Positions 14,834 through 34,754 of a DNA stretch of 64,000 bases are shown one piece after another. Under the pieces are notes generated by a model. The model was not told the origin of the DNA, made no database searches, and saw nothing but the letters and a program-made list of their open reading frames with translations. The stretch covers positions 62,001-126,000 of the forward strand of contig NZ_KQ758475.1 in the NCBI RefSeq assembly GCF_001456955.1. The letters are read 5' to 3'. Both the position numbers and the translations under genes were made by a program. The stretch is from Microbacterium enclense. Its GTDB lineage: Bacteria > Actinomycetota > Actinomycetes > Actinomycetales > Microbacteriaceae. Numbering within the stretch: position 1 is the first letter of the stretch; each line of letters begins with the position of its first letter.

Positions 14834-14850
14834 CCCTCGAGGAAGATCAC

Positions 14851-16122: not shown

Positions 16123-16131
16123 TCCCTCCGT

Positions 16132-16162
16132 CGGGGTCGCGCTCGCCTCGAGCGCGGCCCCG
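16132..16162 (+). terminator. Stem-loop after WxL-like gene
   Basis: CGGGGTCGCGCTCG (16132-16145) and CGAGCGCGGCCCCG (16149-16162) pair with one mismatch around CCT. It sits between the surface-protein gene and its DUF916 partner, so partial readthrough is expected. Confidence 0.65.
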
Positions 16163-16238
16163 GCGGACACCCTTGGCCAGGGCCCGCTCTTCCACGAGCT
16201 CGGCCCCGGCGAGAACCCTCCGAACGAAAGCCACGCCC

Positions 16239-17483: not shown

Positions 17484-17487
17484 GACC

Positions 17488-17526
17488 CGCTCGCGGCGCG
17501 GAGAGGGACACTCCGCGCCGCGAGCG
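17488..17526 (+). terminator. Strong terminator hairpin after the envelope locus
   Basis: CGCTCGCGGCGCGGAG (17488-17503) and CTCCGCGCCGCGAGCG (17511-17526) pair perfectly over 16 bp around AGGGACA, 5 nt after the DUF916 stop. No U-run follows, as is common in high-GC actinobacteria. Confidence 0.8.
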
Positions 17527-17594
17527 ACCCATCACGCCCGTCGTGCTGCGGCACGGCGGGCGTTTCGCGTGCTCGCGCGTCCATCCGCCGCTCC

Positions 17595-18370: not shown

Positions 18371-18530
18371 CGCAGCGCGGCACAGCGCCACGGCCCCACA
18401 CCGCACCGCAGGCGCCGCGCACGCCCACGGCGGCACGGCGGCACGGCCGCACGGCACGGCCGCACGGCACGGCGGCAACCACACCGCACCGCGTGGACAG
18501 CGAAAGCCGCACCCCGCGCGGCGGCCGGCG

Positions 18531-19721
18531 TCAGGCGCGCAGGAACGCGGCGTTCAGCGACTCGGGCGCGAGCGCGTGCTCGACGGCCAGCATGCTCGCG
18601 CCGATGACGGCGGCGTTCTCGGCCGCAGCCGACTGCACGATCGACAGGTACTCGGTGGCCAGCGGCGTGGAACGCGTGTAGACGACCTCGCGCACTCCCG
18701 CGATCAGGTGCTCGCCGACGCGTGCCATCGACCCGCCGATGGCGATGACCGACGGGTTCATCAGGCTCACGCACGTCGTCAGCACCTCGCCGATGTCGCG
18801 GCCGGCCTGACGCACCGCCTGGATCGCGTCGATGTTGCCACGCTTGACGAGGTCGACCACGTCGGATCCGGTGTGCGCCTCGATCCCCTGCGCGCGCAGG
18901 GCGCGGGCGATGGCGGGACCGGATGCCAGGGCCTCGAGACATCCGCGGTTGCCGCACTGACAGGGGATGTCGGCGCCGCGCGCGACCTGCACGTGACCGA
19001 TGTCGCCCGCGATGCCCTGGGCGCCGCGCTGCAGGTGCCCGTCGGAGATCAGGCCCGTGCCGATACCGGTGGCGACCTTGACGAACATGAAGTGCTCCAC
19101 GGCCGGCCAGGCGACGCTGCGTTCGCCCAGCGCCATGATGTTGACGTCGTTGTCGACGAGCACGGGCGCGGGGATGTGCCGGTTGATCCAGCCGGGGATG
19201 TCGAAGCGGTCCCAGCCGGGCATGATCGGGGGGTTCACCGGCTGCCCGGTGGAGTGCTCGACGGGGCCGGGGACCCCGATGCCCATCGCCGCGACGTCGG
19301 AGACCGATCGTCCCGACTCGGTGAGCAGAGCGGATGCCGTCTCGACGAGCCACGTCAGAACGGGCTCGGGGCCGAGGGCGATGTCGATCTCGCCGTGACG
19401 CTCCGAGAGCACCTTGCCCGTCAGATCGGCGATGGCCACCGTGCCGTGGGAGGCGCCGAGGTCGACGGCGACGACGACCTTGGCGGCGGGGTTGATGGCG
19501 AACTGCGACGGCGGGCGTCCGCCGGTCGAGACGGCATCGGCGACGGGGGTGATGAGCCCCATGCGCATCAGCTCGTCGACGCGGACGGCGACGGTGGACC
19601 GGGCGAGCCCGGTCGACTTAGCCAGCTCCGCGCGCGTACGCGGGACCCCGTCTCGCAGCAGCTGGAACAACTGGCTCACGCCGTTGACCGACTGCACGGA
19701 ATCTGTCGTCATCCTGTTCAC
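18531..19721 (-). CDS. ROK-family transcriptional regulator
   Basis: A 396-aa repressor with an N-terminal MarR-like helix-turn-helix (about 15-75, RAELAKSTGLARSTVAVRVDEL) and a C-terminal ROK/actin-like sugar-binding domain (from VVAVDLGASHGTVAIAD). The zinc motif CQCGNRGCLEAL, typical of ROK proteins, is intact. It is the last leftward gene behind the permease and ATPase of sugar-uptake locus 1, so it probably senses that sugar and represses the locus. The GTG at 19721 has TGTACT 6 nt upstream and may be leaderless; ATG at 19712 is an alternative. The 90-bp gap to the permease carries a hairpin. Confidence 0.92.
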   Translation of the reverse strand: MNRMTTDSVQSVNGVSQLFQLLRDGVPRTRAELAKSTGLARSTVAVRVDELMRMGLITPVADAVSTGGRPPSQFAINPAAKVVVAVDLGASHGTVAIADLTGKVLSERHGEIDIALGPEPVLTWLVETASALLTESGRSVSDVAAMGIGVPGPVEHSTGQPVNPPIMPGWDRFDIPGWINRHIPAPVLVDNDVNIMALGERSVAWPAVEHFMFVKVATGIGTGLISDGHLQRGAQGIAGDIGHVQVARGADIPCQCGNRGCLEALASGPAIARALRAQGIEAHTGSDVVDLVKRGNIDAIQAVRQAGRDIGEVLTTCVSLMNPSVIAIGGSMARVGEHLIAGVREVVYTRSTPLATEYLSIVQSAAAENAAVIGASMLAVEHALAPESLNAAFLRA

Positions 19722-19811: not shown

Positions 19812-20861
19812 TCAGCTCCGTCCGGGAGGGCGGGAGAAGCGCTGCTGAAGCAGCACCGCGACCACGATGATGACACCTTTTGCCACGGCCTGGACAGAAG
19901 ACGAGAGATTGTTCTGAATGAAGACGTTGGTCAGCGTCGCGAAGATCAGCACGCCGAACACCGTGCCGGTGATCGTGCCGCGACCACCGATGAGCAGGGT
20001 CCCTCCTACGACGACCGCCGCGATGGCATCCAATTCGTAGAGCTGACCGTGCGTCGAGGTGCCCGCGGTGGTACGGCCGAGGATCATGACGGCGGCGATG
20101 CCGGCGCACAGTCCGGTGATGGCGTACAGCCACATGGTGTGGCGTCGCACGTCGATGCCGGCCAGGCGTGCGGCCTCGCGGTTGCCGCCGACGGCGACGG
20201 TGCGGCGGCCGAAGGTGGTGCGGTTCAGCAGCACCCAGCCGAAGGCCGCGACGATGGCGAAGATCCAGATGAGGATGTCGACGCCGAGGAAGTCGGAGTT
20301 CATGAAGGTGATGAAGCCGCGGTCCTGCACGACGAGCGTGCGGCGTTCGGCCAGGATCTCGGCGAGACCGCGCGCACCGACGAGCATCGCCAGGGTCGCC
20401 ATGAACGCGACCACGTTGCCGTAGGCGATGACGATGCCGTTGATGAGACCCGCACCGATGCCGACGGCCAGCGCGATGAGGATCATCACGCTCCAGTGGA
20501 GGTTGTCGGCGAGGTCCTGCACGGCGGCGAGGGTGGCCACCACCGAGGCCAGACCCATGACGGAACCGACCGAGAGGTCGATGCCGCCGGCGATGATGAC
20601 GAGCGTCATACCGATGCTGATCACACCGATGATCGAGGCCTGCCGCAGGATCACGAGCAGGTTGTCGACACTCGCGAACGAGGTGGGGGCGGTGACCGCG
20701 CCGACGATGACGATGACGAGCAACGCGACGACGAGGCCGATGTTGCGCCCGGCGGAGCCGGAGAGGAGGCGTCGCCAGGTCGGGGCGGGCGCGGGAGCGG
20801 CGACGGCCCCGGTCTCGGCGGGAGCCGTGCGCACACGGGTCGGGGTGGTCGGCTCGCTCAC
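19812..20861 (-). CDS. Sugar ABC transporter permease (CUT2/ribose type)
   Basis: A 349-aa membrane permease of the RbsC/BPD_transp_2 family, with about eight to ten helices starting near residue 40 (IGLVVALLVIVIVGAVTAP) and the characteristic GMTLVIIAGGIDLSVGSVMG segment and VGGNREAARLAGI loop. It forms the channel of sugar-uptake locus 1. The GTG start at 20861 overlaps the ATPase stop as GTGA, so the two are translationally coupled. A cytosolic Thr/Pro/Ala-rich N-terminal extension precedes the first helix. Its binding protein is divergent at 22636. Substrate is unknown. Confidence 0.93.
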   Translation of the reverse strand: MSEPTTPTRVRTAPAETGAVAAPAPAPTWRRLLSGSAGRNIGLVVALLVIVIVGAVTAPTSFASVDNLLVILRQASIIGVISIGMTLVIIAGGIDLSVGSVMGLASVVATLAAVQDLADNLHWSVMILIALAVGIGAGLINGIVIAYGNVVAFMATLAMLVGARGLAEILAERRTLVVQDRGFITFMNSDFLGVDILIWIFAIVAAFGWVLLNRTTFGRRTVAVGGNREAARLAGIDVRRHTMWLYAITGLCAGIAAVMILGRTTAGTSTHGQLYELDAIAAVVVGGTLLIGGRGTITGTVFGVLIFATLTNVFIQNNLSSSVQAVAKGVIIVVAVLLQQRFSRPPGRS

Positions 20862-22378
20862 GCGGCGGATCCTTTCATGACGAGATCGAGCACGCCGTGC
20901 TCGTCGATCTGATGGGAGGGAAGGGTGCTCAGGATGCGGCCGTCGGCGACGACCAGGACGACGTCGGCGAGGCCGAGGACCTCCTCGATCTCGCTCGAGA
21001 CCACCACGACGGCGTTGCCGGCGGCGGCGAGGTCGCGGATGAGGGCGTAGATCTCGGCGCGGGCGCCGACATCGACGCCGCGGGTCGGTTCGTCGAGCAG
21101 CAGCACGTTGGTGCCGTGCACGAGCCAACGGGCGAGCAGGATCTTCTGCTGGTTGCCGCCCGAGAGGGTGCGTGCGGGACGGTCGGGATCGGCCGGGCGC
21201 AGCTCGAACGCGTCGATCTGCTCGCGGGCGACCTTGCGGGCTGCGCGGTCGTCGAGGAAGCCGCCCCTGGCGAAGCGCTTCATCGAGGCGAGGGCGATGT
21301 TGATGAAGATGGGCTCGTCGAGCACCAGACCCTGGCTCTTGCGCTCCTCGGGTGAGAGGCCGATGCCGGCGTGGACGGCGGCGCGCACCGACCCGCGGGG
21401 CAGCGTCTTCTCGCGCACGCGCACGGTGCCGGCGCTCGCACGGCGGGCACCGTAGACGGTCTCGAGGATCTCGGAGCGTCCCGAGCCGACGAGACCGGCG
21501 AGTCCCACGACCTCACCCGCACGCACCGAGAACGACACGTCGCTGAAGACACCGTGGAGCGCCAGGTCCTGCACGTCGAGAACGACCGGGGCGTCGGATG
21601 CCACGGGCTCGCGCACGGGGAAGACGTTGGCGACCTCGCGACCGGTCATCAGACGGATGAGCTCGGCCTTGGGGGTGTCGGCGGCGGAGAGTCCGACCGC
21701 GGTGGTGCGGCCGTCCTTCAGCACGGTGATGCGGTCGCCGATCTCGCGGATCTCCTCGAGACGGTGGGTGATGTACACCACGGCGATGCCGGCGGCGGTG
21801 AGCTCGCGAACGACCGCGAACAGGTTCTTGACCTCTTCGGTGTCGAGGACGGCAGACGGCTCGTCCATGATGATGAGCTTGATGTCGTGCGACAGAGCGC
21901 GCGCCATGCTCACGATCTGCTTGTTGGCGGCACTCAGCGAACCGACCTCGGTGTGCGGTGACAGCGACGAGTGACCGAGACGACGAAGGAGCTCCCGCGT
22001 CTGGCGCGCGGCTTCGGCGCGGTTGGTGAAGCCGCCGCGAGCCAGTTCGTGCCCGAGGAAGATGTTCTCGGCGATGGTGAGGCCGTCGACGACATCGAGT
22101 TCCTGATACATGGTGGCGATGCCGAGGTCGATGGCGGCATCCGGGTCGGCGATCTCGACGTTCTCTCCGAGCCACACGATCTCGCCCTCGTCGGGGCGGT
22201 GCACGCCGGCGAGCGTCTTGATCAGCGTCGACTTTCCCGCACCGTTCTGGCCGAGGACGCAGTGCACCTCGCCCGCGACGATGTCGAGGTCGACGCCGCG
22301 CAGAGCTCGGACGCCGGCGAAGGACTTCGTCACACCTCGGACGCTGAGTAATGACGGCTGATGGTCAACTTTGATCAC
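20858..22378 (-). CDS. Sugar ABC transporter ATP-binding protein (double ATPase)
   Basis: A 506-aa RbsA/MglA-type ATPase with two ABC domains. Walker A GQNGAGKST is at 43-51, LSAANKQIVSMARAL replaces a canonical signature in the first half, and the second half has LSGGNQQKILLARWL and LLLDEPTRGVDVG. It energises uptake with the permease that overlaps its 3' end. The GTG at 22378 is chosen because homologous sequence begins there and TATGTT lies 6 nt upstream (22385-22390), a leaderless arrangement; earlier in-frame starts would add residues without similarity. GGTCAA (22363-22368) lies within its first codons and may be part of an operator. Confidence 0.93.
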   Translation of the reverse strand: MIKVDHQPSLLSVRGVTKSFAGVRALRGVDLDIVAGEVHCVLGQNGAGKSTLIKTLAGVHRPDEGEIVWLGENVEIADPDAAIDLGIATMYQELDVVDGLTIAENIFLGHELARGGFTNRAEAARQTRELLRRLGHSSLSPHTEVGSLSAANKQIVSMARALSHDIKLIIMDEPSAVLDTEEVKNLFAVVRELTAAGIAVVYITHRLEEIREIGDRITVLKDGRTTAVGLSAADTPKAELIRLMTGREVANVFPVREPVASDAPVVLDVQDLALHGVFSDVSFSVRAGEVVGLAGLVGSGRSEILETVYGARRASAGTVRVREKTLPRGSVRAAVHAGIGLSPEERKSQGLVLDEPIFINIALASMKRFARGGFLDDRAARKVAREQIDAFELRPADPDRPARTLSGGNQQKILLARWLVHGTNVLLLDEPTRGVDVGARAEIYALIRDLAAAGNAVVVVSSEIEEVLGLADVVLVVADGRILSTLPSHQIDEHGVLDLVMKGSAA

Positions 22379-22513
22379 TCGGCGAACATAACACGCTCCC
22401 TCACCGTCGCGCGACACCCAATCCGGGGGAGGAGACCGGCCTCGCGGGCGCGCGAGCGCGGGCGCCCTTTTCGCTCCTTGCGAGCCGAACGCCCACTTAT
22501 GCAGTGCAAAAAA

Positions 22514-22545
22514 CAAAAGTTGACTGATTGACCAACACTTCTGCT
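22514..22545 (+). promoter_or_regulatory. Candidate promoter/operator for the sugar-binding protein
   Basis: CAAAAGTTG (22514-22522) and GATTGACC (22526-22533) lie in an AT-rich island in an otherwise GC-rich divergent region. TTGACT (22520-22525) is a good -35; GCTAGC or TAGCGT about 17-19 bp further on could be the -10. Both words recur at 9891-9906. A ROK or LacI-type repressor site is plausible. Confidence 0.5.
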
Positions 22546-22635
22546 AGCGTGAGGCCCGTCAGAGCGGACCCTTCCTTCCGGAAAACACCCGGGGCCGGGC
22601 TGACCCCAGCTGCATCACATTCAAGGAGGAAGCAC

Positions 22636-23685
22636 ATGCGCTCGAACTGGAAGTCGCGATCGCGACTCGTCCTGACCGGTATGGCGGTCGTCGCCTCGGT
22701 CGGTCTGCTGGCCGGCTGCACCGGCTCGAACAACGACGCCCAGAACGTCGTCGACCAGGGCACGTCCGCCGAAGAGAACGCCGCGGCCGGCGACACCGTC
22801 GTCATCGGCTTCTCCGGCCCCGCCGCCGACCACGGTTGGCTCGGCGCGATCAACTCCGGCGCGCTCGCCGCCGCCGCGAGCTTCTCGGACGTCGAACTGC
22901 GTCAGGCCGAGGGCACCAACGACGTCAACGCGCAGATCGCCGCCGTCGAGACCTTCATCAACGACGGCGTGGATGCCATCGTGCTGCTGCCGAGCGACGG
23001 CGCGGCCCTGACCGAAGTGGCCATCAAGGCGATGAACGCCGGCATCCCGGTCATCAACGTCGACCGCGAGTTCTCCAGCCCCTTCGCCGCCCGCTCCACC
23101 GTGCTCGGCGACAACTACGGCATGGGCGTCAGCGCCGGAACGTACATCTGCGAGCAGCTCGAGGGCAACAGCAGCGCCGTCGTCGCCGAGATCGCCGGCA
23201 TCGACTCGCTGCCGCTCACGCAGGACCGCTCCGCCGGCTTCGCCGACGCGCTGTCGGACTGCGGCCTGAAGGTCGGTCCCCGCGTGGCCGCCGACTTCAC
23301 CGTGCAGGGCGGCGAGGCCTCGACCTCGCAGCTGCTGTCGGCCAACCCGAAGATCGACGCCATCTGGAACCACGACGACGACCAGGGCATCGGTGTGCTG
23401 GCCGCCATCACGGCCGCCGGACGCGACGAGTTCATCATGGTCGGCGGCGCCGGCAGCCGGAACGCGATGGAGACCATCGAGGCCGGCGACAGCCCGCTTC
23501 AGGCCACGGTCATCTACCCGTCGACGCAGGCCGCCGACGGCATCGCGCTGGCGCGTCTCATCGCGCAGGGCAAGACCGCGGGCGACCTCATCACCCCGAG
23601 CGTCCCCAACCGCATCGTGCTCGACGCTCCCGTCGTCACGCGGGACAACGTCGCCGACTTCATCGATCTCGCCTTCGAGTCCTGA
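22636..23685 (+). CDS. Sugar ABC transporter substrate-binding lipoprotein
   Basis: A 349-aa extracytoplasmic binding protein of the Peripla_BP_4 (ribose-like) family. The lipobox LLAGC puts the lipidated cysteine at residue 28. The two-lobed fold is evident from VIGFSGPAADHGWLGAINSG at the start of the mature protein and DGVDAIVLLPSDGAALTEV further on. AAGGAGGA just before the ATG at 22636 sets the start. It captures sugar for the permease/ATPase pair encoded divergently. A strong hairpin behind the gene is typical of binding-protein genes that need higher expression than their neighbours. Ligand unknown. Confidence 0.93.
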   Translation: MRSNWKSRSRLVLTGMAVVASVGLLAGCTGSNNDAQNVVDQGTSAEENAAAGDTVVIGFSGPAADHGWLGAINSGALAAAASFSDVELRQAEGTNDVNAQIAAVETFINDGVDAIVLLPSDGAALTEVAIKAMNAGIPVINVDREFSSPFAARSTVLGDNYGMGVSAGTYICEQLEGNSSAVVAEIAGIDSLPLTQDRSAGFADALSDCGLKVGPRVAADFTVQGGEASTSQLLSANPKIDAIWNHDDDQGIGVLAAITAAGRDEFIMVGGAGSRNAMETIEAGDSPLQATVIYPSTQAADGIALARLIAQGKTAGDLITPSVPNRIVLDAPVVTRDNVADFIDLAFES

Positions 23686-23724: not shown

Positions 23725-23753
23725 ACCCCGTTCCCCCAGAGAAAGATCCCATC

Positions 23754-24965
23754 GTGACCCAGCCCCTTCGCATCGCCATGATCGGTGCGGGATTCATGGG
23801 CGCCGCGCACTCCCAGGGATGGCGCGTCGCACCCCGATTCTTCGACCTCCCCCGCTCCCCCGAGATGAGCGTCCTCGTGGGGCGCGACGCCACTCGCACG
23901 CAGCAGTGCGCCGACACCTGGGGCTGGGGCGAGAGCGCGACGGATTGGCGCGAGGTCGTCCAGCGTCCCGACGTCGACGTCGTCGACATCGTCACCCCCG
24001 GTGACACGCACGCCGAGATCGCCATCGCCGCCCTCGAGGCCGGCAAGCACGTGCTGTGCGAGAAGCCCCTGGCCAACACCGTCGACGAAGCGCGGCGCAT
24101 GGCGGATGCCGCGGCGGCCGCCGCCGAGAACGGCATCCGGTCCATGGTGGGCTTCACCTACCGGCGCCTTCCCGCCACCACGTTCGCCCGCGATCTCATC
24201 GCCGCCGGCCGTCTCGGCGACATCCGCCAGGTGCGCGCGGAGTACCTCCAGGACTGGCTCAGCGACGCCGAGGCGCCCCTGACGTGGCGCCTGCAGAAAG
24301 ACCGCGCCGGCTCCGGCGCCCTCGGCGACATCGGCGCGCACGCCGTCGACATCACCGAGTACATGACCGGTCAGCGCGTCACCCGCGTCGCGGGCGTACT
24401 CGAGACCATCGTCGCCGAACGCCCCGTGCTGGCGTCGTCGTCTGGCCTGTCGGGCTCGGCCGGAACCGAGCGCGGCGCGGTGACCGTCGACGATCTCGCC
24501 CTGTTCACCGGGCGCCTCGAGTCCGGCGCCCTCGCCTCGTTCGAGGCATCGCGCTTCCGCCTCGGCCGCAAGAACGGCCTGCGCGTCGAGATCGCCGGCT
24601 CCCTCGGCTCTCTCTCGTTCGACCTCGAGAGCCCGAACGAACTCCACCTCTACGACGCGACCCTGCCCGACACCGAACAGGGCTTCCGCCGCATCCTGGT
24701 GACCGAGCCCGGACACCCCTACGCCGGCGCCTGGTGGCCCACCGGCCACATGCTGGGCTACGAGCACGGCTTCTCGCACCAGGCGAAGGACTTCGTCGAG
24801 GCGATCGCCGCGGACGCCGACCCCAGGCCCTCGTTCGCCGACGGTCTGCACGTGCAGGAGGTGCTGGATGCCGTGGCGCGCAGCTCGGACGCCGAGGGCG
24901 CGTGGACGAGCGTCGAGGCACCGACGGCGCCCGTGGCGGCCGATCAGCTGCTCGCGGCATCCTGA
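23754..24965 (+). CDS. Gfo/Idh/MocA-family NAD(P)-dependent oxidoreductase
   Basis: A 403-aa sugar or cyclitol dehydrogenase with an N-terminal Rossmann fold ([17 protein letters not shown] from residue 7) and the family EKPLANT motif near 102-108. The C-terminal substrate domain includes [12 protein letters not shown], whose His is the expected catalytic partner. Members oxidise sugars, inositols or glycosides at a ring hydroxyl. The GTG at 23754 follows a weak AGAGAAAG site. It sits between the binding protein and a TIM-barrel isomerase, so the imported sugar is probably oxidised then isomerised, as in inositol-like or keto-sugar pathways. The exact substrate cannot be assigned. Confidence 0.9.
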
Positions 24966-24993
24966 ATCCATCCCCTTCGAAAGGACGTCCGCG

Positions 24994-25998
24994 ATGACGC
25001 GACCGATCACGCTGTTCACCGGCCAGTGGGCCGACCTGCCCTTCGAAGAGGTCGCGCGCCTCGCCGGGGAGTGGGGCTACGACGGCCTCGAGATCGCCTG
25101 CTGGGGCGATCACCTCGACCCGTGGCGCTGGGACGACGACGACTACGTGCAGGGCAAGCTCGACGTGCTCGAGCGCAACGGCCTGAAGGTCTGGACCATC
25201 TCCAACCACCTCAAGGGCCAGGCCGTCTGCGACGACCCCATCGACCAGCGGCACCGCGACATCGTGTCGGATCGGGTCTGGGGCGACGGCGACCCCGAGG
25301 GCGTGCGTCAGCGCGCCGCCGAGGAGCTGAAGAACACCGCGCGCCTGGCATCCAAGCTGGGGGTGAAGACCGTCACCGGCTTCACCGGATCGAGCATCTG
25401 GAAGTACGTCGCGATGTTCCCGCCCGCCAGCGAGCAGATGGTGGACGCCGGGTACCAGGACTTCGCCGATCGCTGGAACCCGATCCTCGACGTCTTCGAC
25501 GAGGTCGGCGTGCGCTTCGCCCACGAGGTGCATCCGTCGGAGATCGCCTACGACTACTGGACGACGAAGCGCGCGCTCGAAGCGATCGGGCACCGCCAGG
25601 CGTTCGGGCTGAACTGGGACCCGTCGCACATGGTGTGGCAGGACATCGACCCGGTCGCCTTCCTGTGGGACTTCCAGGACAAGATCTTCCACGTGCACTG
25701 CAAAGACACGAAGAAGCGCCTCGGCAACGGCCGCAACGGCCGTCTGTCGTCGCACCTGCCCTGGGCCGACCCGCGCCGCGGCTGGGACTTCATCTCCACC
25801 GGGCACGGCGACGTGCCCTGGGAGGACGCCTTCCGCATGCTGAACGCGATCGGCTATGACGGCCCCCTCTCGGTCGAGTGGGAGGATGCCGGTATGGACC
25901 GTCTGGTCGGAGCGCCCGAGGCGCTCGGATTCGTGCGGAAGTTGTCGACGTACGAGCCCTCGGGCGCGGCGTTCGACGCGGCGTTCAGCACGCGCTGA
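24994..25998 (+). CDS. Sugar phosphate isomerase/epimerase-family TIM-barrel protein
   Basis: A 334-aa xylose-isomerase-like TIM-barrel enzyme without a signal peptide, so cytosolic. Likely metal ligands appear in order: [35 protein letters not shown] and SVEWED. CGAAAGGACG precedes the ATG at 24994 by about 6 nt. It follows the Gfo/Idh/MocA oxidoreductase after a 28-bp gap and should act on the same imported sugar or its keto derivative. It differs from the Tat-exported isomerase at 13805 in length and motifs, so it is not a recent duplicate. Confidence 0.9.
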
Positions 25999-27160: not shown

Positions 27161-27350
27161 TCGGCGCACGCGCCGCGCGCGCCAGACGCCCGGAATCGCC
27201 CGGCGCCTGCGCCCGGCCCGCACGGTGCGCGCCCGGCGCCCAACCCGCGCCGCGCGCGCCGGCGCCCCGCACCCCCGGCGCGCGGCGCCGCGCGCGCCGG
27301 CGCCCCGCACCCCCGGCGCGCGCCAGACGTCCAGCGCGCCCGGCGGGGCG

Positions 27351-28733
27351 TCAGGCGCCGAGCCCGCGCAGCACCAGGTCGCGCACTCCCGCCGCGGGCA
27401 GCGCCTCGACGTCGGGCAGCAGTCCGGAATCGCTCGTCACGACCATCGGCGCATCGTGGCGCGAGGTGGGCAGGCGGCCGTGGGTGCCGCGCACGCAGGT
27501 GGGGTCGAGCGGCACCGTGCTCATGGCGTAGCGCAGGCCCAGCTTCTTCTTCACGAGGTTGACGCCGGCTTTGGCCTTCGCGAGGCGGTCGGCGGGGTCG
27601 AAGAACAGCTCGGCGGGGTCGTACCCGGGCTTGCGGTGGATGTCGACGCCCCGGGCGTACTCGGGCGCGCGGTCGTCGTCGAGCCAGAAGTAGTAGGTGA
27701 ACCACGCGCCCGGCTCGGCCACGACGACCAGATCGCCCGAACGCTCGTGGTCGAGCCCGTAGCGGGCCTGCGCCTCGCGGTCGAGCACCTCGTCGACGCC
27801 CTCGAGCCCCCGCAGCAGCGCGGCGACGCGCGCGAGGTCGGCGGCATCCGGAACGTAGACGTGGGCCACCTGATGGTCGGCGACGGCGAAGGCGCGCGAG
27901 GTCCACGGGTCGAGCTGCTCGCGGCCGTCTTGCACGTACACCTCGAGCAATCCCGCCCGCCGGAGCGCGCGGTTGACGTCGACGGGGCGCGAGGCCTGCT
28001 CGATGCCGTACTCCGACACCGCGACGACGGTGTAGCCGCGGTCGGCGGCGTCGTCGAGCAGCGGCGCGATGGTGTCGTCGAGCTCGCGGGCGGCGCGATC
28101 GGCCTCGGCGCCGTTCGGTCCGAAGCGCTGCAGGTCGTAGTCGAGGTGCGGCAGGTACGCCATCGCCAGGTCGGGCGCGGGTCCCCACCGTTCGGTGATG
28201 ATGCCGCGGGTCGCCTCGGTCAGCCACGCGCTGCTTCGGATCGTCGCCGTCGGCCCCCAGTACTGGAACAGCGGGAACTCCCCCAGCGCGCCGACGAGCT
28301 GATCGTGCAGGGCCGCCGGGCGCACGTACGCGTCGGGGCTCTTGCGCCCGTCGGCGTGGTAGATCGGCCGGGGCGTCACGGTGACGTCGGTGGTCGCGCC
28401 CATCGCGAACCACCAGCCGAGGTTCGCCGTGCGCAGCTCGGGACGGGAGCGGCGGGCGGTCTCCCACACCTTCTCTCCCGCGACGAGCTTGTTGTGCTGG
28501 CGCCACAGCAGCGGGTCGCCGAGCCCGCGGAAGTACCAGCCGTTGCCGACGATGCCGTGCTCGCGGGGGGCGAGACCGGTGAGCATGGTCGACTGCACGC
28601 TGCACGTCACGGCGGGAAGGATCGTGTCGAGCCCCACCTGACCGCCGCGGCGACCGAGCGCGCTCAACCGCGGCATCGCCGCGAGCGCCCGCGGGGTGAG
28701 CCCCACGATGTCGAGGAGAAGGACCTTGCTCAT
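27351..28733 (-). CDS. Nucleotide pyrophosphatase/phosphodiesterase-like protein (EboF-type)
   Basis: A 460-aa member of the alkaline-phosphatase superfamily, close to nucleotide pyrophosphatases and phosphodiesterases. The first metal ligand Asp8 (VLLLDIVG) and the nucleophile Thr43 (ILPAVTCSVQS) are followed by HGIVGNGWY and later metal-binding HLDYDLQ, SEYGIEQ and DHQVAHVY motifs. No signal peptide. It is the last gene of the six-gene operon; its ATG overlaps the EboE-type stop as ATGA. In Ebo clusters this enzyme would cleave a phosphodiester or pyrophosphate in the trafficked metabolite. The role is inferred from context; the superfamily is certain. Confidence 0.87.
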   Translation of the reverse strand: MSKVLLLDIVGLTPRALAAMPRLSALGRRGGQVGLDTILPAVTCSVQSTMLTGLAPREHGIVGNGWYFRGLGDPLLWRQHNKLVAGEKVWETARRSRPELRTANLGWWFAMGATTDVTVTPRPIYHADGRKSPDAYVRPAALHDQLVGALGEFPLFQYWGPTATIRSSAWLTEATRGIITERWGPAPDLAMAYLPHLDYDLQRFGPNGAEADRAARELDDTIAPLLDDAADRGYTVVAVSEYGIEQASRPVDVNRALRRAGLLEVYVQDGREQLDPWTSRAFAVADHQVAHVYVPDAADLARVAALLRGLEGVDEVLDREAQARYGLDHERSGDLVVVAEPGAWFTYYFWLDDDRAPEYARGVDIHRKPGYDPAELFFDPADRLAKAKAGVNLVKKKLGLRYAMSTVPLDPTCVRGTHGRLPTSRHDAPMVVTSDSGLLPDVEALPAAGVRDLVLRGLGA

Positions 28734-30151
28734 GTGCGGCTCCCGCCGTCGATTCCGGATGCCGGAGACCCGGCGATGTCGCTCGCGTGCGGCGACCGCG
28801 CGGGAGCACCGGATGCGGCGACCCCGGCGAGCTCGCGGCCGCGCGCGGGCGCCGCCGCGGTGGCAGCCCCAACCGCGGGTGGGGGCACCGCCCCCGTGGC
28901 ATCCCGATCCTCAGGCGCGGGCGCCGCCGGCGCGGCATCGCGGTCCTCGGGCGCGGGCACCGCCCCCGTGGCATCGCGGTCCTCGGGCGCGGGCACCGCC
29001 GGCACGGCATCCGGAGCCGAGTCGGTCAGCGCGTGCGGCAGATGCTCGCGCACCCAGCGGAGCTCGGCGGCGATGCCGTCCGCGAGGGTGTCGGGCTGCA
29101 GCGATGCGGGCAGCACCGACCACGTGTACGTCTCCACGTCGAGGTGCGCATCGGCCCCGCCGGGAGCGGCGAGCACCGCGTCGACGGCCGCGCGCAGCAC
29201 CTCGGTCGTCGCGCGCAGCGGAGCCGCGGGCCGGGCGTGGAGCGGGATGTGCACGTGCACCCGCCACGCCTGATCGCCGGGCCACGGCTCGTCTGCGTCG
29301 AGCACCTCGGGCAGGTCGTCGGCGGTGTGCGTGCCGCCGGCGCTGCGCACCTGGTGCACGTAGCGCTCCTCGGCGAAGGGGCGCAGCGCGTCGAGGGCGC
29401 CGGGAGCTTCGGGGTCGGGCACCTCGAGCGCGACGGAGGCCTGCACCTTGACGACCCGCACGCCCGCGGCGGTCGCGGCCGCGACGACGGCGGCCGGATC
29501 GGCGAACGACACCGCGAGATGGCAGGTGTCGAGGCACAGCCCGAGCCGTCCGTCGGCGATGAGCGCCGGGCGCGCGCCGAGCCACGCCACCACGTCGGCG
29601 ACGTCGTCGAGGATGCACCCCGGTTCGGGCTCGATCGCCACCCGCACGGTACGTCCGGTCTCGCGCTCGATGGCGGCGAGGCCCTCGACCAGGCGTCCGA
29701 GGTTCTGCTCCGCGGCGCGGGAGGCCGCGGCATCCCACCCCTCACGCCACCCCAGCGGCAGCGTCGAGATGCTGCCCTCGGCGCCCTCGGGCACCAGCGC
29801 TGCCAGCGCCCGTGCGCAGTCGAGCGTGTACGCGAGGCGCTCGGGCGTCGTCCAGTCGGGGCGGTAGACCGCGAGCTTGACGACGTCGTCGTGGAACCCG
29901 CGGTACGGGAAGGCGTTCACCGTGCGCAGCTCGAGAGCGTTGCGCTCGAGGGCGTCGGCGAGCACCGCGCGGGCCCGCCCGTCACCGGAGAGCGTGGATG
30001 CCACGCCCACCGGCATCCACAGTCCGACGCCGAGGCGGTCGAGGCCCGCGGCCCGCCGCACGGGGCCGGCGTGCTCGTCGAGCTGGCGGACGATGCCGGG
30101 GAGGTCTTCGGCGGGGTGGACGTTGGTGCAGTACGACAGCTCCACCCTCAC
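28730..30151 (-). CDS. TIM-barrel metabolite traffic protein, EboE-type
   Basis: A 473-aa xylose-isomerase-like TIM-barrel protein beginning VRVELSYCTNVHPAEDL, the hallmark start of the EboE family. Acidic and His residues that would bind metal include VAIEPEPGC, LCLDTCH and VKVQAS. The last ~90 residues are Ala/Pro-rich and contain near-identical copies of APEDRDA (tandem DNA repeat at about 28880-29010). This tail is not needed for the fold. The GTG at 30151 overlaps the TatD-like stop as GTGA; GTG at 30145 is an alternative. EboE proteins have no proven reaction; they are needed for metabolite export in the cyanobacterial system. Confidence 0.85.
   Translation of the reverse strand: MRVELSYCTNVHPAEDLPGIVRQLDEHAGPVRRAAGLDRLGVGLWMPVGVASTLSGDGRARAVLADALERNALELRTVNAFPYRGFHDDVVKLAVYRPDWTTPERLAYTLDCARALAALVPEGAEGSISTLPLGWREGWDAAASRAAEQNLGRLVEGLAAIERETGRTVRVAIEPEPGCILDDVADVVAWLGARPALIADGRLGLCLDTCHLAVSFADPAAVVAAATAAGVRVVKVQASVALEVPDPEAPGALDALRPFAEERYVHQVRSAGGTHTADDLPEVLDADEPWPGDQAWRVHVHIPLHARPAAPLRATTEVLRAAVDAVLAAPGGADAHLDVETYTWSVLPASLQPDTLADGIAAELRWVREHLPHALTDSAPDAVPAVPAPEDRDATGAVPAPEDRDAAPAAPAPEDRDATGAVPPPAVGAATAAAPARGRELAGVAASGAPARSPHASDIAGSPASGIDGGSRT
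28880..29010 (-). repeat. In-frame tandem repeat at the 3' end of the EboE-type gene
   Basis: About three repeats with the core GATCCTCAGGCGCGGGCG or GGTCCTCGGGCGCGGGC encode APEDRDA separated by TGAVP or APAAP. Unit length is about 40-45 bp and the frame is kept. Confidence 0.75.
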
Positions 30152-31032
30152 GCCCCCTGGCGCGACGCCATGCCGCGCAGCACCGAGTTGCCCTCGAACA
30201 GGTCGGGACCCTGTTTCGCGGGGGCGAACCCCTCGATCGGGTCGGTGTTCACCCGACCGCTCTGCGCGTAGAAATAGCGGGGGTTGCGCCACAGGATGCG
30301 ATCAACGTCGTCGTCGCTGAAGCCGGCGTCGAGCATGGCGAGGCCGGTCTTCGCGGTCTTCAGCGGGTCGGAACGACCCCAGTCGGCGGCGGAGTTGACG
30401 ATCACGCGGTCGAGGCCGATGCGCTGCATGATCGCGACCACGCGCTGCTCGTCCATCTTGGTGTCGGGGTAGATCGAGAAGCCCATCCACGCTCCGCTGT
30501 CGGCGACGGCGTCGACGCACGTCTCGTTGAGGTGGTCGACGAGCACATGCTGCATCGGGATGCCGGACTCACGCACCACGTCGAGCGTGCGCTGCGTGCC
30601 GACGGCCTTGTCGCGGTGCGGGGTGTGCACGAGCACGGGCAGCGCGAACTCGATGCCGAGGGCGAGATGCTGGCGGAGGATCTCGTCCTCCTCCGGGGTC
30701 ATCGAGTCGTAGCCGGTCTCACCGACCGCCACGACGCCGTCTTTGGCGAGGTAGTGCGGCAGTTCGGGCATGACCTCGCGGCAACGGGGATCGTTCGCCT
30801 CTTTCGGATTCAGCGCGATCGTGCAGTGATGACGGATGCCGAACTGCGCGGCGCGGAACCTCTCCCACCCGATCAGGGTGTCGAAGTAGTCGAGGAACGA
30901 CCCGACGCTCGTGCGGGGCTGACCGAGCCAGAACGCCGGCTCGACGAGGGCGCGAACGCCGGCGTCGTACATGGCCTCGTAGTCGTCGGTGGTGCGCGCC
31001 GTCATGTGGATGTGGGGATCGAAGATGCGCAT
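30148..31032 (-). CDS. TatD-family metal-dependent hydrolase (EboB-type)
   Basis: A 294-aa amidohydrolase-superfamily TIM barrel starting MRIFDPHIHM, whose DPHIH (residues 5-9) is the N-terminal metal site. Other likely ligands are GETGYDS and VLVHTPHRDK, with VLVDHLNE and VNSAADWG toward the C terminus. TatD proteins are known as DNases and esterases, but members in Ebo clusters probably hydrolyse a small metabolite. The ATG at 31032 follows the preceding stop by one base and has GAAAGG 9 nt upstream; a GTG at 31047 is possible. Its stop overlaps the EboE-type start. Confidence 0.87.
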   Translation of the reverse strand: MRIFDPHIHMTARTTDDYEAMYDAGVRALVEPAFWLGQPRTSVGSFLDYFDTLIGWERFRAAQFGIRHHCTIALNPKEANDPRCREVMPELPHYLAKDGVVAVGETGYDSMTPEEDEILRQHLALGIEFALPVLVHTPHRDKAVGTQRTLDVVRESGIPMQHVLVDHLNETCVDAVADSGAWMGFSIYPDTKMDEQRVVAIMQRIGLDRVIVNSAADWGRSDPLKTAKTGLAMLDAGFSDDDVDRILWRNPRYFYAQSGRVNTDPIEGFAPAKQGPDLFEGNSVLRGMASRQGA

Positions 31033-31033
31033 G

Positions 31034-32590
31034 TCAGGCCCTTTCACGAGCGCGGAGGAGGGTGAGATCGTCGGGCACCGTGCGTCCGGCGGCGCGGCGC
31101 TCCTCGGCGAAGCGCGCGGCCATCGCGGCGAGTTCGTCGTCGGCGCGCGCCTCGAGCCCCGCGACGACCGAGAGCGGGATGCCGAGAAACACGCACTTCA
31201 GCACGCCGTGGCGCCACGCATGGTCGTCGAGGTGCGCCGCGGCGAAGGAGCCGAGGGCTGCGGCGACGAGGCGGGTGTCGTTCGCGCGCAGGGCGTCGAG
31301 CACGAGGTCGAGCCCCGCATCACGCCAGGCCGGCGCCGGATCGGTGATCGCGTCGAGGCCGCGCAGCACGCCGCGGCGCTCGGCGTCGTCGCCGCGCCGG
31401 TAGAGCGCGACCGCCGCGGCCGGGTCGGCGCCGCCGTCGGCGAGCGCCGCGATGATGGCGGCCCGGGCGGCGTCGTCGGCGGTCGGCGCGAACGGTTCCG
31501 CGGTCAGCGGCTCGCGTCCGACCTCGCGTCCGGCCGCGGCGAACAGGCGCGCCGCGCCCGTGGCATCCCCTCGCACCTGCTCGACGGCCCGGGTGGTCCA
31601 GGGGTGCGGGCCCGCGCCGCGGGAGGAGATCGCGGGAGCGGAGGATGCCACGGCCCCGGCCGATCCTCCCGTCGCCGAATCCCCTCCCGCCGCCGGCGCC
31701 GCGGGGGCCCGGCCCGCCACCGGCACCGTCGCACCGGAAGCCGCACCGGAGCGCGCCGCGGCGGCGGTCAGCGCCGCCATGCTGGCGCGCGCGAGGGCCG
31801 GAGCCGCGTGCGCATGGCGGGGCAGCTCGACGGCGACGACGCCGCGGTAGTCGAGCTCGCGGAGCGTGGCGAGCGCGGCATCCAGGTCGAGCGCCCCCTC
31901 GCCGAAGGGGAGGTGCTCGTGGGCGTGCGGGAGCATGTCGTCGGCCTGCACGTTGCGCAGCAGCGCACCCGCTGCTCGCAACGCGCCCACGACACCGTCG
32001 GGTTCGACGACGACGCAGTGCCCGAGGTCGACGGTGATGCCGAGGTTCGCGGGGTGCCCGAGGCGGGCGCGCACGGCGAGGGCGTCGGCGACGGTCTCGA
32101 CGACCATGCCGGGCTCGGGTTCGAGGGCGAGCGGAACGCCCGCCGCCGCTGCCACGGCGGTGAGTTCGAGCAGACGCTCATCGAGGAGCACGCGGGCGGC
32201 GTCGAGCGTCACATCGTCGGGGAGCACACCGCTCCACAGCGACACGCAGTCGGCGCCGAGGATCGCGGCGATCTCGATCGCGCGGCGAAGGAACACCATG
32301 CGCGGTTCGGCGTTGCGGTCGACCAGCGTCGGGCGGTGCTTGCGCACGGGGTCGAGCAGGTAGCGCGCTCCGGTCTCGACGACGACCCGCATCCGGCGTC
32401 GGCGCAGATCCGCCGACAGCGCCTCGGCCTGCGCGCGCCAGTCGGGTGCGAACGGGTCGAGGTGCGGGTGGCCGAGCGTGAGGGCGACGGCCGTGTACCC
32501 CTCGTCCTGCAGCACGTCGAGCGCGGACGGCAGGGGGTGATCGGTGAAGCCGTTGGTTCCGTAACCGATGCTCCAAGGCACCTCGTTCAT
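31034..32590 (-). CDS. Fusion of a TIM-barrel isomerase and an EboA domain
   Basis: A 518-aa two-domain protein. Residues about 5-275 form a sugar phosphate isomerase/epimerase TIM barrel with likely metal ligands in LALEPEPG (about 154-161), ITVDLGHC (185-192), PHAHEH (221-226) and VAVELPRH (252-259). Residues 280-328 are an Ala/Gly/Ser linker, and about 330-518 match the EboA type (GAARLFAAAGREVGREPL, helical repeats, LKCVFLGIPLSVV). In other Ebo clusters EboA is a separate protein, so this is a fusion. The ATG at 32590 overlaps the UbiA stop as ATGA. Reaction unknown; a cyclitol or sugar isomerase step is plausible. Confidence 0.82.
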   Translation of the reverse strand: MNEVPWSIGYGTNGFTDHPLPSALDVLQDEGYTAVALTLGHPHLDPFAPDWRAQAEALSADLRRRRMRVVVETGARYLLDPVRKHRPTLVDRNAEPRMVFLRRAIEIAAILGADCVSLWSGVLPDDVTLDAARVLLDERLLELTAVAAAAGVPLALEPEPGMVVETVADALAVRARLGHPANLGITVDLGHCVVVEPDGVVGALRAAGALLRNVQADDMLPHAHEHLPFGEGALDLDAALATLRELDYRGVVAVELPRHAHAAPALARASMAALTAAAARSGAASGATVPVAGRAPAAPAAGGDSATGGSAGAVASSAPAISSRGAGPHPWTTRAVEQVRGDATGAARLFAAAGREVGREPLTAEPFAPTADDAARAAIIAALADGGADPAAAVALYRRGDDAERRGVLRGLDAITDPAPAWRDAGLDLVLDALRANDTRLVAAALGSFAAAHLDDHAWRHGVLKCVFLGIPLSVVAGLEARADDELAAMAARFAEERRAAGRTVPDDLTLLRARERA

Positions 32591-33558
32591 GTGATGTCTC
32601 CTCTCGAGCGGCGGCGCCCGAGCAGGCGACCGGCGACCTCGACGCCGAGCAGGGCGAGGGTCGCGACCGGTGACCCGGCCCGGGCGGCAAGGGCCGACTG
32701 CAGCGGGACGACGGCGCGGATGCCGGCACGCGTGGCATCCCGTGAGTTCGATGCGCTCGCCTCGCCCGCCACGGCCAGGTACCCCGGAAGCACGGCCGCG
32801 AGATAGCGGGCGCCGCCCAGGGCCGCAGCCGCGCGGGCGCCGCCCAGGGCCGCAGCCGCGCGGGGCCCACCCAAGGCCGCAGCCGCGCGAGCACCCCCGA
32901 GGGCCGCAGCCGCGCGGGCCCCGCCGGGCCGACCCGACGCGCCACCCCCGCCGAGCAGACCGGATGCCGCGACGGCCACGCTCGCGGCGACGGCGGCGCC
33001 GCCCGTCACGCGGGTGGACCCGTCGACCTCGCCGCGCGAGACGGCGGTGACCGCGACGGTGTGCACGGCGACCGCGCTCGCGGGCAGCAGGGCGCCGCGC
33101 CACCCGGGGCCCGCCGCCCCCATCATCACGTCGAGGCCACGGCAGACCGCCATGACGACGGGTCCGGCGGCGGTCGGCTTGAAGACGAGGTCGTACGCCC
33201 AGAGCGCCCCCGCCAGCGCGAGCGACACCAGGCCCGAGGCGCGCCCGGCGGCGAACGCCGACCCGATGCCGAGAGCGGTGAGTCCCGCGCCGACGGCGAG
33301 CGCGCGCGAGCGCGTGATACGCCCCGACGGAATCGGGCGCTCCGGCCGCTCGAGCGCGTCGAGATCGGCATCCGCCCAGTCGTTCAGAGCCATTCCGGCG
33401 CTGTACAGGCACACCGACGACGCCGCGAGCGCACCGCCTCGCAGCGGGGAGTCGCCTCCGGAGCCGCGGGCGCTGAGCGCGCCGACCACGGCGTCGCCGA
33501 GCACGGTCAGCGACGCCGGAGCGCGGACGAGGTCGAGATAGTCCGCGACGCGCGTCAC
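32587..33558 (-). CDS. UbiA-family prenyltransferase (EboC-type)
   Basis: A 323-aa membrane prenyltransferase. The first aspartate motif NDWADADLD (59-67) and the following RPERPIPSG (71-79) are diagnostic, and AYDLVFKPT later marks the second conserved region. About seven helices are visible. It transfers an isoprenyl group from a prenyl diphosphate, Mg-dependently, at the membrane. Between helices, about residues 212-250 carry a four-copy AAALGGARA repeat from a 27-bp tandem. The GTG at 33558 overlaps the inositol-phosphate-synthase stop as GTGA. Its acceptor is unknown; the neighbour suggests an inositol-type cyclitol. Confidence 0.9.
   Translation of the reverse strand: MTRVADYLDLVRAPASLTVLGDAVVGALSARGSGGDSPLRGGALAASSVCLYSAGMALNDWADADLDALERPERPIPSGRITRSRALAVGAGLTALGIGSAFAAGRASGLVSLALAGALWAYDLVFKPTAAGPVVMAVCRGLDVMMGAAGPGWRGALLPASAVAVHTVAVTAVSRGEVDGSTRVTGGAAVAASVAVAASGLLGGGGASGRPGGARAAAALGGARAAAALGGPRAAAALGGARAAAALGGARYLAAVLPGYLAVAGEASASNSRDATRAGIRAVVPLQSALAARAGSPVATLALLGVEVAGRLLGRRRSRGDIT
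32806..32925 (-). repeat. 27-bp in-frame tandem repeat in the UbiA-family gene
   Basis: About four units with the core GGCCGCAGCCGCGCGGGC encode nine-residue LGGARAAAA repeats inserted in a loop between membrane helices. Copies are almost identical, so the array is recent. It has the same 9-residue period as the repeat in the DUF916 gene. Confidence 0.85.
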
Positions 33559-34754
33559 GGTGCGGCGACCCGCGCCGCGGCCACCGCGGCCGCCGTCTCG
33601 TGCACCCACGAGACGTACTGCGCGGTCTGCTCGCCGAAGCCGTGCACGTCGCTGCCCCAGGGGTCTTTGAAGAAGCAGCCGAGGGCGGGCACGACGCCGG
33701 CGTGACCGGCGCGGGTGGCCAGCGACAGGGAGCGCACGAGGTCGATCACCAGGGGCGCTGCCAGCGCGGAGTCGTACGCGCTCCACGTGGTCTGCAGGGT
33801 GACGCGGCTGCCGAGGAAGCCGGTGGCGCTGACGTGGTCCCACGCGGTCTTGACGTCGCCGAGGTCGGGCACGTTGTCGATGTGCAGGGGCGCGACGACG
33901 TCGTCGCCGACGAGGGCGTGCAGGCCGCGGTTCTTCGACACGAGCTTGGACCGCACTGCTTCGGGGTCGGCGAGCGTGGCGCCGTCGCCACCGCCGAGCA
34001 GGTTCGTACCGGCCCACGACTGCACCCGGAAGCCGCGCGCGGCGAACATGGGCGCGAGCACCGTGCGCAGCAGCGTCTCACCCGTCTTGCCGTCCTGTCC
34101 GGCGTAGGCGATTCCCGCGCGTTCGGCGCGTTCGCGCAGCACAGGGAGGTTGAGGGATGCCGAGGGGGTGAAGGCCGCGTAGGCGGCTCCGGCCGCGATG
34201 GCCGCGAGGGCGGCGCGTGAGCTCGGCGGCAGCACCCGCACGCCCGGCGTGGTGAGCGCGGCCTGCAGCAGGGCGTCGTCCTCGAAGCCGGGGTGGTAGG
34301 GCGGAAGGGGTTCGGTCGACGACACGTCGATGACGACGACCTCGCGCAGGCCGTGCCGATCGCGGAAGTCCGCGATGTCGGCGGCCATCAGGTCGATCTC
34401 CTCCTGCTGCGTGGTGGTGCGCGTCGGGACGGGGCGCAGGTTCTGCTCGGTGGCGCGGAGGCGCTCGCGCACGGCGTCGACGAGGGCCGCGGGGAACATG
34501 CCGCCCCCGGCGAGCTGCTCGGCGCGCTCCTCGAGCGGGGTCGCCGCGATGTCGTGGCCGCCGACGACAATGTCGGCGACGGCGGGGAACTCCTCGACGC
34601 GCACCGCGTCGGTCTCGGTGGTGAGGCCGATCGGCGAGGCGGCACCGAGGGCGAGCGCGTGGATGCCGATGGTCGCGGTCGTGGCGAGCGACCCGCGCGC
34701 GCCGATGAACCAGGCTCCGACTTCGGCGGTGGAGGGGGTGTCCGAGGTGTTCAC
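33555..34754 (-). CDS. Inositol-3-phosphate synthase-like enzyme heading the Ebo-type operon
   Basis: A 399-aa protein of the myo-inositol-1-phosphate synthase family, converting glucose 6-phosphate to inositol phosphate with NAD. The Rossmann start is WFIGARGSLATTATIG; DGKTGETLLRTVLAPMF, GTNLLGGGDG and SKNRGLHALV correspond to the conserved catalytic core. It is somewhat longer than typical actinobacterial Ino1. The GTG at 34754 starts the homologous region; a palindrome GGATGAGCTCATCC lies at 34779-34792, upstream. It is the first gene of a leftward operon of six. In cyanobacterial Ebo clusters a sugar-phosphate cyclase holds this place, so a cyclitol product is consistent. Confidence 0.88.
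   Translation of the reverse strand: MNTSDTPSTAEVGAWFIGARGSLATTATIGIHALALGAASPIGLTTETDAVRVEEFPAVADIVVGGHDIAATPLEERAEQLAGGGMFPAALVDAVRERLRATEQNLRPVPTRTTTQQEEIDLMAADIADFRDRHGLREVVVIDVSSTEPLPPYHPGFEDDALLQAALTTPGVRVLPPSSRAALAAIAAGAAYAAFTPSASLNLPVLRERAERAGIAYAGQDGKTGETLLRTVLAPMFAARGFRVQSWAGTNLLGGGDGATLADPEAVRSKLVSKNRGLHALVGDDVVAPLHIDNVPDLGDVKTAWDHVSATGFLGSRVTLQTTWSAYDSALAAPLVIDLVRSLSLATRAGHAGVVPALGCFFKDPWGSDVHGFGEQTAQYVSWVHETAAAVAAARVAAP

Follow-up and report, generated by a model that had tools for sequence, protein, structure and literature searches.

What does an ebo-type operon make when it contains no EboD sugar-phosphate cyclase and is headed by an inositol-phosphate synthase? This question is raised by six minus-strand genes at positions 27351-34754 of a 64,000-nt stretch of contig NZ_KQ758475.1 from Microbacterium enclense (hereafter, the window; the genome comprises 3.67 Mb in 15 contigs). 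We identify these genes as an operon belonging to a variant of the ebo cluster, in which the INO1-type synthase and a TIM-barrel enzyme (enzyme X) have jointly been swapped for EboD. On balance, we consider that this variant probably makes a prenylated inositol-derived lipid that serves metabolite handling at or across the membrane.

Gene content and conservation of the operon

The operon consists of the following genes, given in the order of transcription:

33555..34754, minus strand: INO1-type myo-inositol-3-phosphate synthase, operon gene 1 (PF07994, 133 bits, and PF01658, 103 bits, both over the cut-off)
32587..33558, minus strand: SCO3242-family prenyltransferase of the UbiA superfamily in the EboC position (NF045897, 277.5 with a cut-off of 260; PF01040, 72.8)
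31034..32590, minus strand: fusion of an N-terminal xylose-isomerase-like TIM barrel (enzyme X; PF01261) and a C-terminal EboA helical domain (NF035938)
30148..31032, minus strand: TatD-like metal-dependent hydrolase in the EboB position (PF01026, 47.8 bits; ATG start, alternative GTG at 31047)
28730..30151, minus strand: EboE, a xylose-isomerase-like TIM barrel whose C-terminal tail is rich in repeats (NF035939, 413.4 bits, cut-off 250)
27351..28733, minus strand: EboF-type type I phosphodiesterase/nucleotide pyrophosphatase (PF01663, 207.7 bits)

A sequence-only reading of this region had described six leftward genes joined by four 4-bp overlaps and a 1-bp gap, and all of these were found at the described place and strand. 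As read directly at the junctions, the overlaps are GTGA (INO1/EboC and EboB/EboE) and ATGA (EboC/TIM and EboE/EboF), and the gap is the single nucleotide of TGA-C-ATG before EboB. The predicted matches to the EboA and EboE profiles also held. EboE scores well over the cut-off of its model, and the EboA domain model (144 bits vs the cut-off of 50) covers residues 372-511 of the fusion protein, while PF01261 (117 bits) covers residues 25-275; the full-length EboA_family model reaches only 51.9 against its cut-off of 320. The EboB and EboF positions are occupied as in canonical ebo operons, as judged from PF01026 and PF01663 and from phmmer comparison with annotated ebo clusters: the former protein matches the TatD protein of the Azospirillum ebo cluster with 380 bits, and the latter matches the EboF-position proteins of three EboD-type clusters with 447.9-496.7 bits. 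The motif N-[DEH]-x-x-D-x-x-x-D is present in 80/83 homologues of the UbiA protein. The description of the operon as a complete Ebo-type one requires a qualification with regard to EboD, for which neither a profile nor a match was found within the window operon.

GC-rich minisatellites occur inside and just after the operon, with a 27-bp unit within the prenyltransferase gene (32806-32925), 36/72-bp units in the C-terminal tail of EboE (28843-29011), and a 38-bp unit immediately past the end of the EboF gene (27247-27322). The window has no Rfam match at gathering score.

Conservation was assessed in a survey of 396 genomes of the phylum, from which 19 loci were fetched; in 80 named loci, which are the best of 591 confirmed stretches as ranked by similarity to the window and are all actinobacterial (60/80 span at least 18 kb); in 149 genomes of the genus; and in a plasmid collection with 48 EboE-matching records (32 from actinomycetes and 16 from other organisms). 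The order INO1-EboC-TIM-EboA-EboB-EboE-EboF is kept on one strand in 51/80 named loci, which argues that the gene set is not a chance assembly; the other 29 are truncated at the edge of a contig, include parts too weak for the tblastn threshold, or miss INO1. EboE matches were found in 19/396 survey genomes, in 18 of them over the cut-off, and 17 of these 18 carry INO1 (PF07994) within 5 kb of EboE, as calculated from the two match tables. The exception, genome G381, has an EboD-bearing locus (L027) composed of EboD, an EboG-like gene, EboB, EboE, UbiA, and EboF, followed by isopentenyl diphosphate isomerase. Another genome, G128, has two clusters and INO1 in one of them only. Most actinomycete plasmid records (28/32, many being near-copies of one another) also match INO1, 3-5 kb from the EboE match. 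The expectation that the six genes stay together in actinobacteria was borne out across the phylum. Within the genus the operon is patchy, since only 9/149 genomes have EboE; the closest named relative among the matches listed is Microbacterium testaceum (EboE, 85%; INO1, 92%).

INO1 is present in 52 of the 63 named loci that have at least 7 kb before EboE. Nearly every genome with an INO1-less cluster retains one INO1, since 10/11 hold it elsewhere: seven within approximately 5 kb of a second EboE, one (G541) approximately 26 kb from a second EboE, and one (G544) on another contig. The tenth, Streptomyces canus V4I20 (G547, the genome of L095), has a full INO1 more than 1 Mb away and, close to the second EboE, a weak INO1 fragment of 37 positions, a pattern that looks like relocation and decay. 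Six INO1-less Streptomyces copies (L024, L084, L088, L100, L110, and L117) are preceded by GGT-, inositol-monophosphatase-, and CrtO-like genes and have a P450- or macrodomain-like gene on the other side (the names GGT, inositol-monophosphatase, P450, and macrodomain were assigned by eye).

INO1 and enzyme X in place of EboD

Enzyme X was found in 55/56 INO1-bearing named loci and in all 11 INO1-less named loci with enough flanking sequence, and EboD in none of the 80. Among the 19 survey loci, EboD occurs once, in L027, which has neither INO1 nor X. Ten of the 16 non-actinomycete EboE plasmid records were opened, the other six being further Ketogulonicigenium and Mycetohabitans records, and the presence of EboD, INO1, and X in them was judged by tblastn at 1e-8. 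Nine of the ten (from Ketogulonicigenium, Roseivivax, Azospirillum, two Deinococcus, two Salipiger, Mycetohabitans, and Aureibacter) have EboD and neither INO1 nor X. The tenth, from Gemmatirosa (Gemmatimonadota), has INO1 and X and no EboD; its EboG-like gene, EboB, EboF, UbiA, INO1, and X stand in a row, and EboE is divergent. The choice between EboA and EboG and the choice between EboD and INO1 look independent, since in Gemmatirosa INO1 and X accompany an EboG-like gene (52 bits).

INO1 further recurs on plasmids of the haloarchaea Halobaculum, Halocatena, and Natronococcus, together with a phosphodiesterase, TatD, UbiA, and two TIM proteins; the TIM protein encoded next to TatD is the one closest to X. 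At the same tblastn threshold, these three clusters gave no match for EboA, EboG, or EboE. Reduced ebo-like clusters were seen on four haloarchaeal plasmids in total (L130, L132, L136, and L137), INO1 standing beside three of them. Two of the EboD-type clusters, those of Mycetohabitans and Aureibacter (L140 and L142), are both preceded by genes for a large hypothetical protein and a ferritin-like protein.

The INO1 plus X set and the EboD set are mutually exclusive in every locus examined. INO1 does stand in the place of EboD, as had been proposed from the sequence, but it does not do so alone: X accompanies it in the 55/56 loci cited above and was not found in the ten EboD-bearing loci. New here is this joint replacement of EboD by INO1 and X, which recurs in one member of Gemmatimonadota and on three haloarchaeal plasmids.

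The closest solved relatives of the window INO1 are the myo-inositol-phosphate synthase (MIPS) structures of Archaeoglobus (1u1i, E 1e-53), and together with the two Pfam domains this places the protein in the synthase family. Positions aligned with D225, N255, D261, K274, K278, K306, D332, and K367 of 1u1i are invariant in 66/66 sequences (the window and 65 of the 98 loci, those with long matches for five genes). We take these eight residues to be catalytic, and some of them are visible as mutant entries of 1u1i. Hence the protein looks like a true inositol-phosphate synthase with an intact active site; it shares the family and these residues with the Archaeoglobus fulgidus myo-inositol-1-phosphate synthase and is itself tied to an ebo operon. 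The actinobacterial mycothiol INO1 is a distant homologue, with the TIGR03450 model giving 38 bits on the window protein, far below the cut-off of 638. Mycothiol was ruled out as the reason for INO1, given that MshA exceeds its cut-off in 0/29 genomes of the genus (the subset used for this test). No second INO1-type match was found in the window genome.

A midpoint-rooted tree of 54 INO1 rows (30 of the 66 sequences and one more ebo-linked, four ebo-linked from other phyla, and 19 others; a locus of mycothiol type had no match and was left out) unites the 31 actinobacterial ebo-linked proteins in one clade (99/98). Gemmatirosa and haloarchaeal INO1 join this clade (97/96), apart from other MIPS, and the second INO1 of three ebo-bearing genomes (G051, G075, and G097) falls outside it. 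The row of an Arthrobacter plasmid is on a very long branch. Pairwise distances of INO1 correlate with those of EboE (0.918) and TIM (0.897), with 0/2000 permutations as high, so that INO1 co-diverges and appears to be co-inherited with both, shared species history being partly responsible.

The fusion of X and EboA had been regarded as a telling physical link between EboA and an enzyme. This view was not sustained: of the 72 named loci in which both proteins were detected, 55 (L075 among them) encode them separately and only 17 as a fusion, and a 2016 paper (PMC5133447) had already referred to actinobacterial hybrids as 'data not shown'. The survey loci agree: in 16/17 the genes are separate, and in 12 of these 16 they may overlap by 4 bp. 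Fusion was therefore rejected as the usual arrangement, and most relatives have a seven-gene operon rather than one of six genes. AlphaFold models the fusion (pLDDT 89.3, pTM 0.64) as a TIM barrel and a helical domain connected by a low-confidence linker (residues 288-324). Best Foldseek matches of the X barrel are ketose 3-epimerases, e.g., UlaE, with IolI at rank 19 and the 3-keto-glucoside 4-epimerase YcjR at rank 38. The fold of EboA suggests no function, since this helical repeat has no match in PDB at E 0.001.

Secreted dehydrogenases and the wider locus

The sequence-only reading was incomplete with respect to the surroundings of the operon, having left out a secreted dehydrogenase, a sugar importer, and isomerases:

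10173..13718, plus strand: secreted glucose/sorbosone dehydrogenase (GSDH) beta-propeller with PKD, CBM6, and Ig-like domains (PF07995; secretion judged by eye from the N terminus)
13805..14833, plus strand: secreted-type TIM-barrel protein (PF01261, 54.4 bits; twin-arginine-like N terminus by eye)
18531..19721, minus strand: ROK-family regulator (PF00480)
19815..20738, minus strand: permease of a sugar ATP-binding cassette (ABC) importer, conserved part (PF02653)
20858..22516, minus strand: ATPase of the sugar ABC importer, open reading frame, conserved part up to 22396 (PF00005, two stretches)
22528..23685, plus strand: sugar-binding protein of the importer (PF13407)
23751..24965, plus strand: Gfo/Idh/MocA oxidoreductase (PF01408/PF22725)
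24982..25998, plus strand: TIM-barrel sugar isomerase/epimerase (PF01261, 146.7 bits)

Approximately 3.7 kb without a clear gene (14834-18530) separate the secreted-type TIM and ROK genes.

The GSDH gene, 17.7 kb from EboE, is the sole GSDH match of the window genome. In the survey, 10/16 ebo-bearing genomes have GSDH no more than 10 kb from EboE, compared with 0.27 expected from GSDH numbers and genome sizes; this test used 16 of the 18 ebo-bearing genomes (G318 and G381 were left out), which are not independent of one another. Neighbourhoods were counted in 77 loci of at least 18 kb, 60 of them named, with homologues taken at E 1e-20. GSDH is the most frequent neighbour (42 loci), followed by the isomerase (31), ThuA (28), the secreted-type TIM protein (27), Gfo/Idh, the ABC ATPase, and 3-keto-disaccharide hydrolase (19 each), and polyprenyl synthase (10). 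Among the 60 named loci of this length, GSDH is present in 32, distributed over 17/28 genera. Other dehydrogenases take this position elsewhere: a pyrroloquinoline quinone (PQQ)-dependent sugar dehydrogenase adjoins the Natronococcus INO1 cluster, and a PQQ dehydrogenase adjoins one of the two Salipiger EboD-type clusters.

On three Streptomyces plasmids (L123, L133, and L134, two of them close copies), a ScyD/ScyE protein is encoded directly before INO1 and a multicopper oxidase downstream, which constitutes a scytonemin-like export-then-oxidise layout outside cyanobacteria. On other Streptomyces plasmids the INO1-type operon adjoins non-ribosomal peptide synthetase (NRPS)-type genes (L128) or type II polyketide synthase (PKS) genes (L135).

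The Gemmatirosa INO1 cluster has as its neighbour a homologue 57% identical to the window isomerase (24982..25998). As an ebo-specific partner this isomerase was ruled out, 112/149 genomes of the genus carrying a homologue. The alpha/beta hydrolase, MarR, MFS, and FMN-dehydrogenase genes upstream were likewise dismissed as operon partners, having no homologue in 111 other loci (E 1e-30).

The product of the operon

The first step of the pathway, conversion of glucose 6-phosphate to inositol phosphate by INO1-catalysed cyclisation, is well supported as a prediction by protein family and active-site residues. For the later steps, we infer the following scheme. Enzyme X, with EboE and EboB, would remodel the cyclitol; the membrane UbiA enzyme would attach a polyprenyl chain to it, a step for which the Asp-rich motif shared by its homologues and the polyprenyl synthase near 10/77 loci count; EboF would hydrolyse a phosphoester or pyrophosphate on the way; and EboA may be a helical-repeat scaffold. 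INO1 and X would together do the job done elsewhere by EboD. The prenylated lipid would then serve the handling of small molecules where, at many loci, a secreted oxidoreductase acts: GSDH here, and ScyD/ScyE or PQQ dehydrogenases elsewhere. A role in transport is suggested by analogy with Nostoc, in which ebo is needed for scytonemin export (PMC6282210). The cyclitol-plus-prenyl logic of the sequence-only reading is supported along with the kinship to ebo and the place given to INO1. Earlier work had already put forward an isoprenoid-cyclitol as the product of EboD-type clusters (PMC5133447) and also a lipid carrier (PMC6282210); a prenyl-inositol is a putative product.

Several observations weigh against this scheme. 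The EboC equivalog model NF035940 gives the window UbiA protein 131 bits, below its cut-off of 250. Relatives of EboC farnesylated quinoline-type acceptors, accepting 6/14 aromatic compounds and no phenols or catechols, and the section of PMC9235831 that reports these acceptors mentions no cyclitol. ScyD/ScyE is near none of the 77 loci, and 33/77 have none of GSDH, ThuA, and ScyD/ScyE nearby. The isomerase common in the genus is near EboE in 5 of the 9 ebo-bearing genomes, and members of the genus that have no ebo commonly carry sugar genes like those flanking the operon. In Ketogulonicigenium a different TIM isomerase, matching the secreted-type TIM protein of the window and not X, stands beside the EboD cluster. 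The Haladaptatus locus (L137) has the haloarchaeal set without INO1 within the 25 kb examined; Halomarina INO1, inside the haloarchaeal group of the tree, is in no ebo-like cluster; and one of the 11 genomes with INO1-less clusters, G546, has no INO1. The part of the co-divergence that shared species history explains also counts here, as does the composition of the named loci, which favour close kin because they were ranked by similarity to the window.

Among the alternatives, it is possible, though unlikely, that the product is a secondary metabolite, namely a diffusible prenylated cyclitol with antimicrobial or repellent action, rather than a carrier lipid, and that the secreted dehydrogenase modifies it. 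Such a metabolite was proposed for EboD-type clusters in PMC5133447, PMC6282210 cites an 'edible' EDB phenotype, and SCO3242 and SCO3243 are listed within the calcium-dependent antibiotic (CDA) cluster of S. coelicolor in PMC3610822; the PKS and NRPS genes adjoining the operon on Streptomyces plasmids point the same way. However, since the operon adjoins such unrelated scaffolds as type II PKS, NRPS-type, and ScyD/ScyE genes, and SCO3242/SCO3243 are listed in the CDA cluster, a generic accessory role independent of the scaffold fits better, and in Nostoc every ebo mutant studied builds up one and the same cytoplasmic monomer (PMC6282210).

A broader and rather improbable proposal is that the ebo pathway, in both its EboD and INO1 plus X forms, would make a new prenylated cyclitol cofactor on the outer face of the membrane, on which exported beta-propeller oxidoreductases of bacteria and haloarchaea would depend, the 'transport' phenotype being a consequence. 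In its narrower form, with the product as a membrane-bound redox or other cofactor for GSDH, PQQ dehydrogenases, and ScyE, we hold the idea to be improbable. It agrees with the proximity of GSDH to EboE in 10/16 genomes, with ScyD/ScyE before INO1 on three Streptomyces plasmids, with the PQQ dehydrogenases beside the Salipiger and Natronococcus clusters, and with the absence of a PqqE match over the cut-off from the window genome, but not with the 33/77 loci that lack GSDH, ThuA, and ScyD/ScyE. GSDH-fold proteins, moreover, need not bind quinone. Nor would a cofactor directly explain the scytonemin monomer retained in the cytoplasm of Nostoc (PMC6282210).

That INO1 is a housekeeping supplier of inositol (for phosphatidylinositol, mycothiol, or a solute) merely heading the operon is highly improbable. 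Although it is the only INO1-type match of the window genome, it belongs to a separate ebo-linked clade, three genomes hold a second and different INO1, the operon is tight and its genes co-diverge, and the MshA result bears on mycothiol in particular. Hardly credible, finally, is the view of the locus as an island for the catabolism of a sugar or cyclitol (with importer, Gfo/Idh, isomerases, ThuA, and 3-keto-disaccharide hydrolase) in which the ebo genes serve degradation: such genes recur around the operon, and ABC genes with ThuA or DUF1080 are near haloarchaeal copies, but INO1 is biosynthetic and UbiA enzymes prenylate, the isomerase is widespread without ebo, and the Streptomyces plasmid operons sit among other biosynthetic genes without these island genes.

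Among known systems, the operon is closest to the canonical eboABCDEF of cyanobacteria, Bacteroidetes, and eustigmatophyte plastids (PMC5133447, according to which the cluster spans several phyla and algal plastids). The two share the EboA domain, the EboB-like TatD protein, UbiA, EboE, EboF, and operon organisation; they differ in that the window operon has no EboD, has INO1 and an extra TIM enzyme, has a SCO3242-family UbiA protein below the EboC cut-off, and, with X and EboA counted apart, follows the order INO1-C-X-A-B-E-F. Since EboD and the EboC equivalog were both sought and neither was found, it should not be filed as canonical ebo, although it very probably works like it. With the eboG-type clusters of Deinococcus and L027 it has EboB, UbiA, EboE, and EboF in common, whereas those clusters have EboD and an EboG-like gene, a label based on PMC5133447 and gene position. 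In S. coelicolor, SCO3242 gave its name to the prenyltransferase family, and SCO3243 is listed as a myo-inositol phosphate synthase in PMC3610822; for neither did we find a function in print, only entries in the expression tables of that paper. We likewise found no description of INO1 in an ebo cluster among the papers listed in the literature searched, which excluded subscription journals, preprints, supplements, and figures (Figure 3 of PMC9235831, on Saccharomonospora clusters, may draw the arrangement); PMC5133447, PMC9235831, and PMC6282210 do not use the word 'inositol' at all in their main texts.

This is a genuine and ancient variant, shared widely and with relatives already known, in which a core enzyme has been exchanged. 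Because the substrate and product of INO1 are predictable, it suggests a specific first reaction for the pathway and adds weight to the case for a cyclitol as a true intermediate. INO1 and X standing in for EboD, taken with the reduced haloarchaeal INO1 set in which EboA and EboE were not detected, would define a minimal enzyme set. The hidden product of the ebo cluster should be easier to track through this variant: label from glucose or inositol would be traceable, which makes a long-standing question directly testable.

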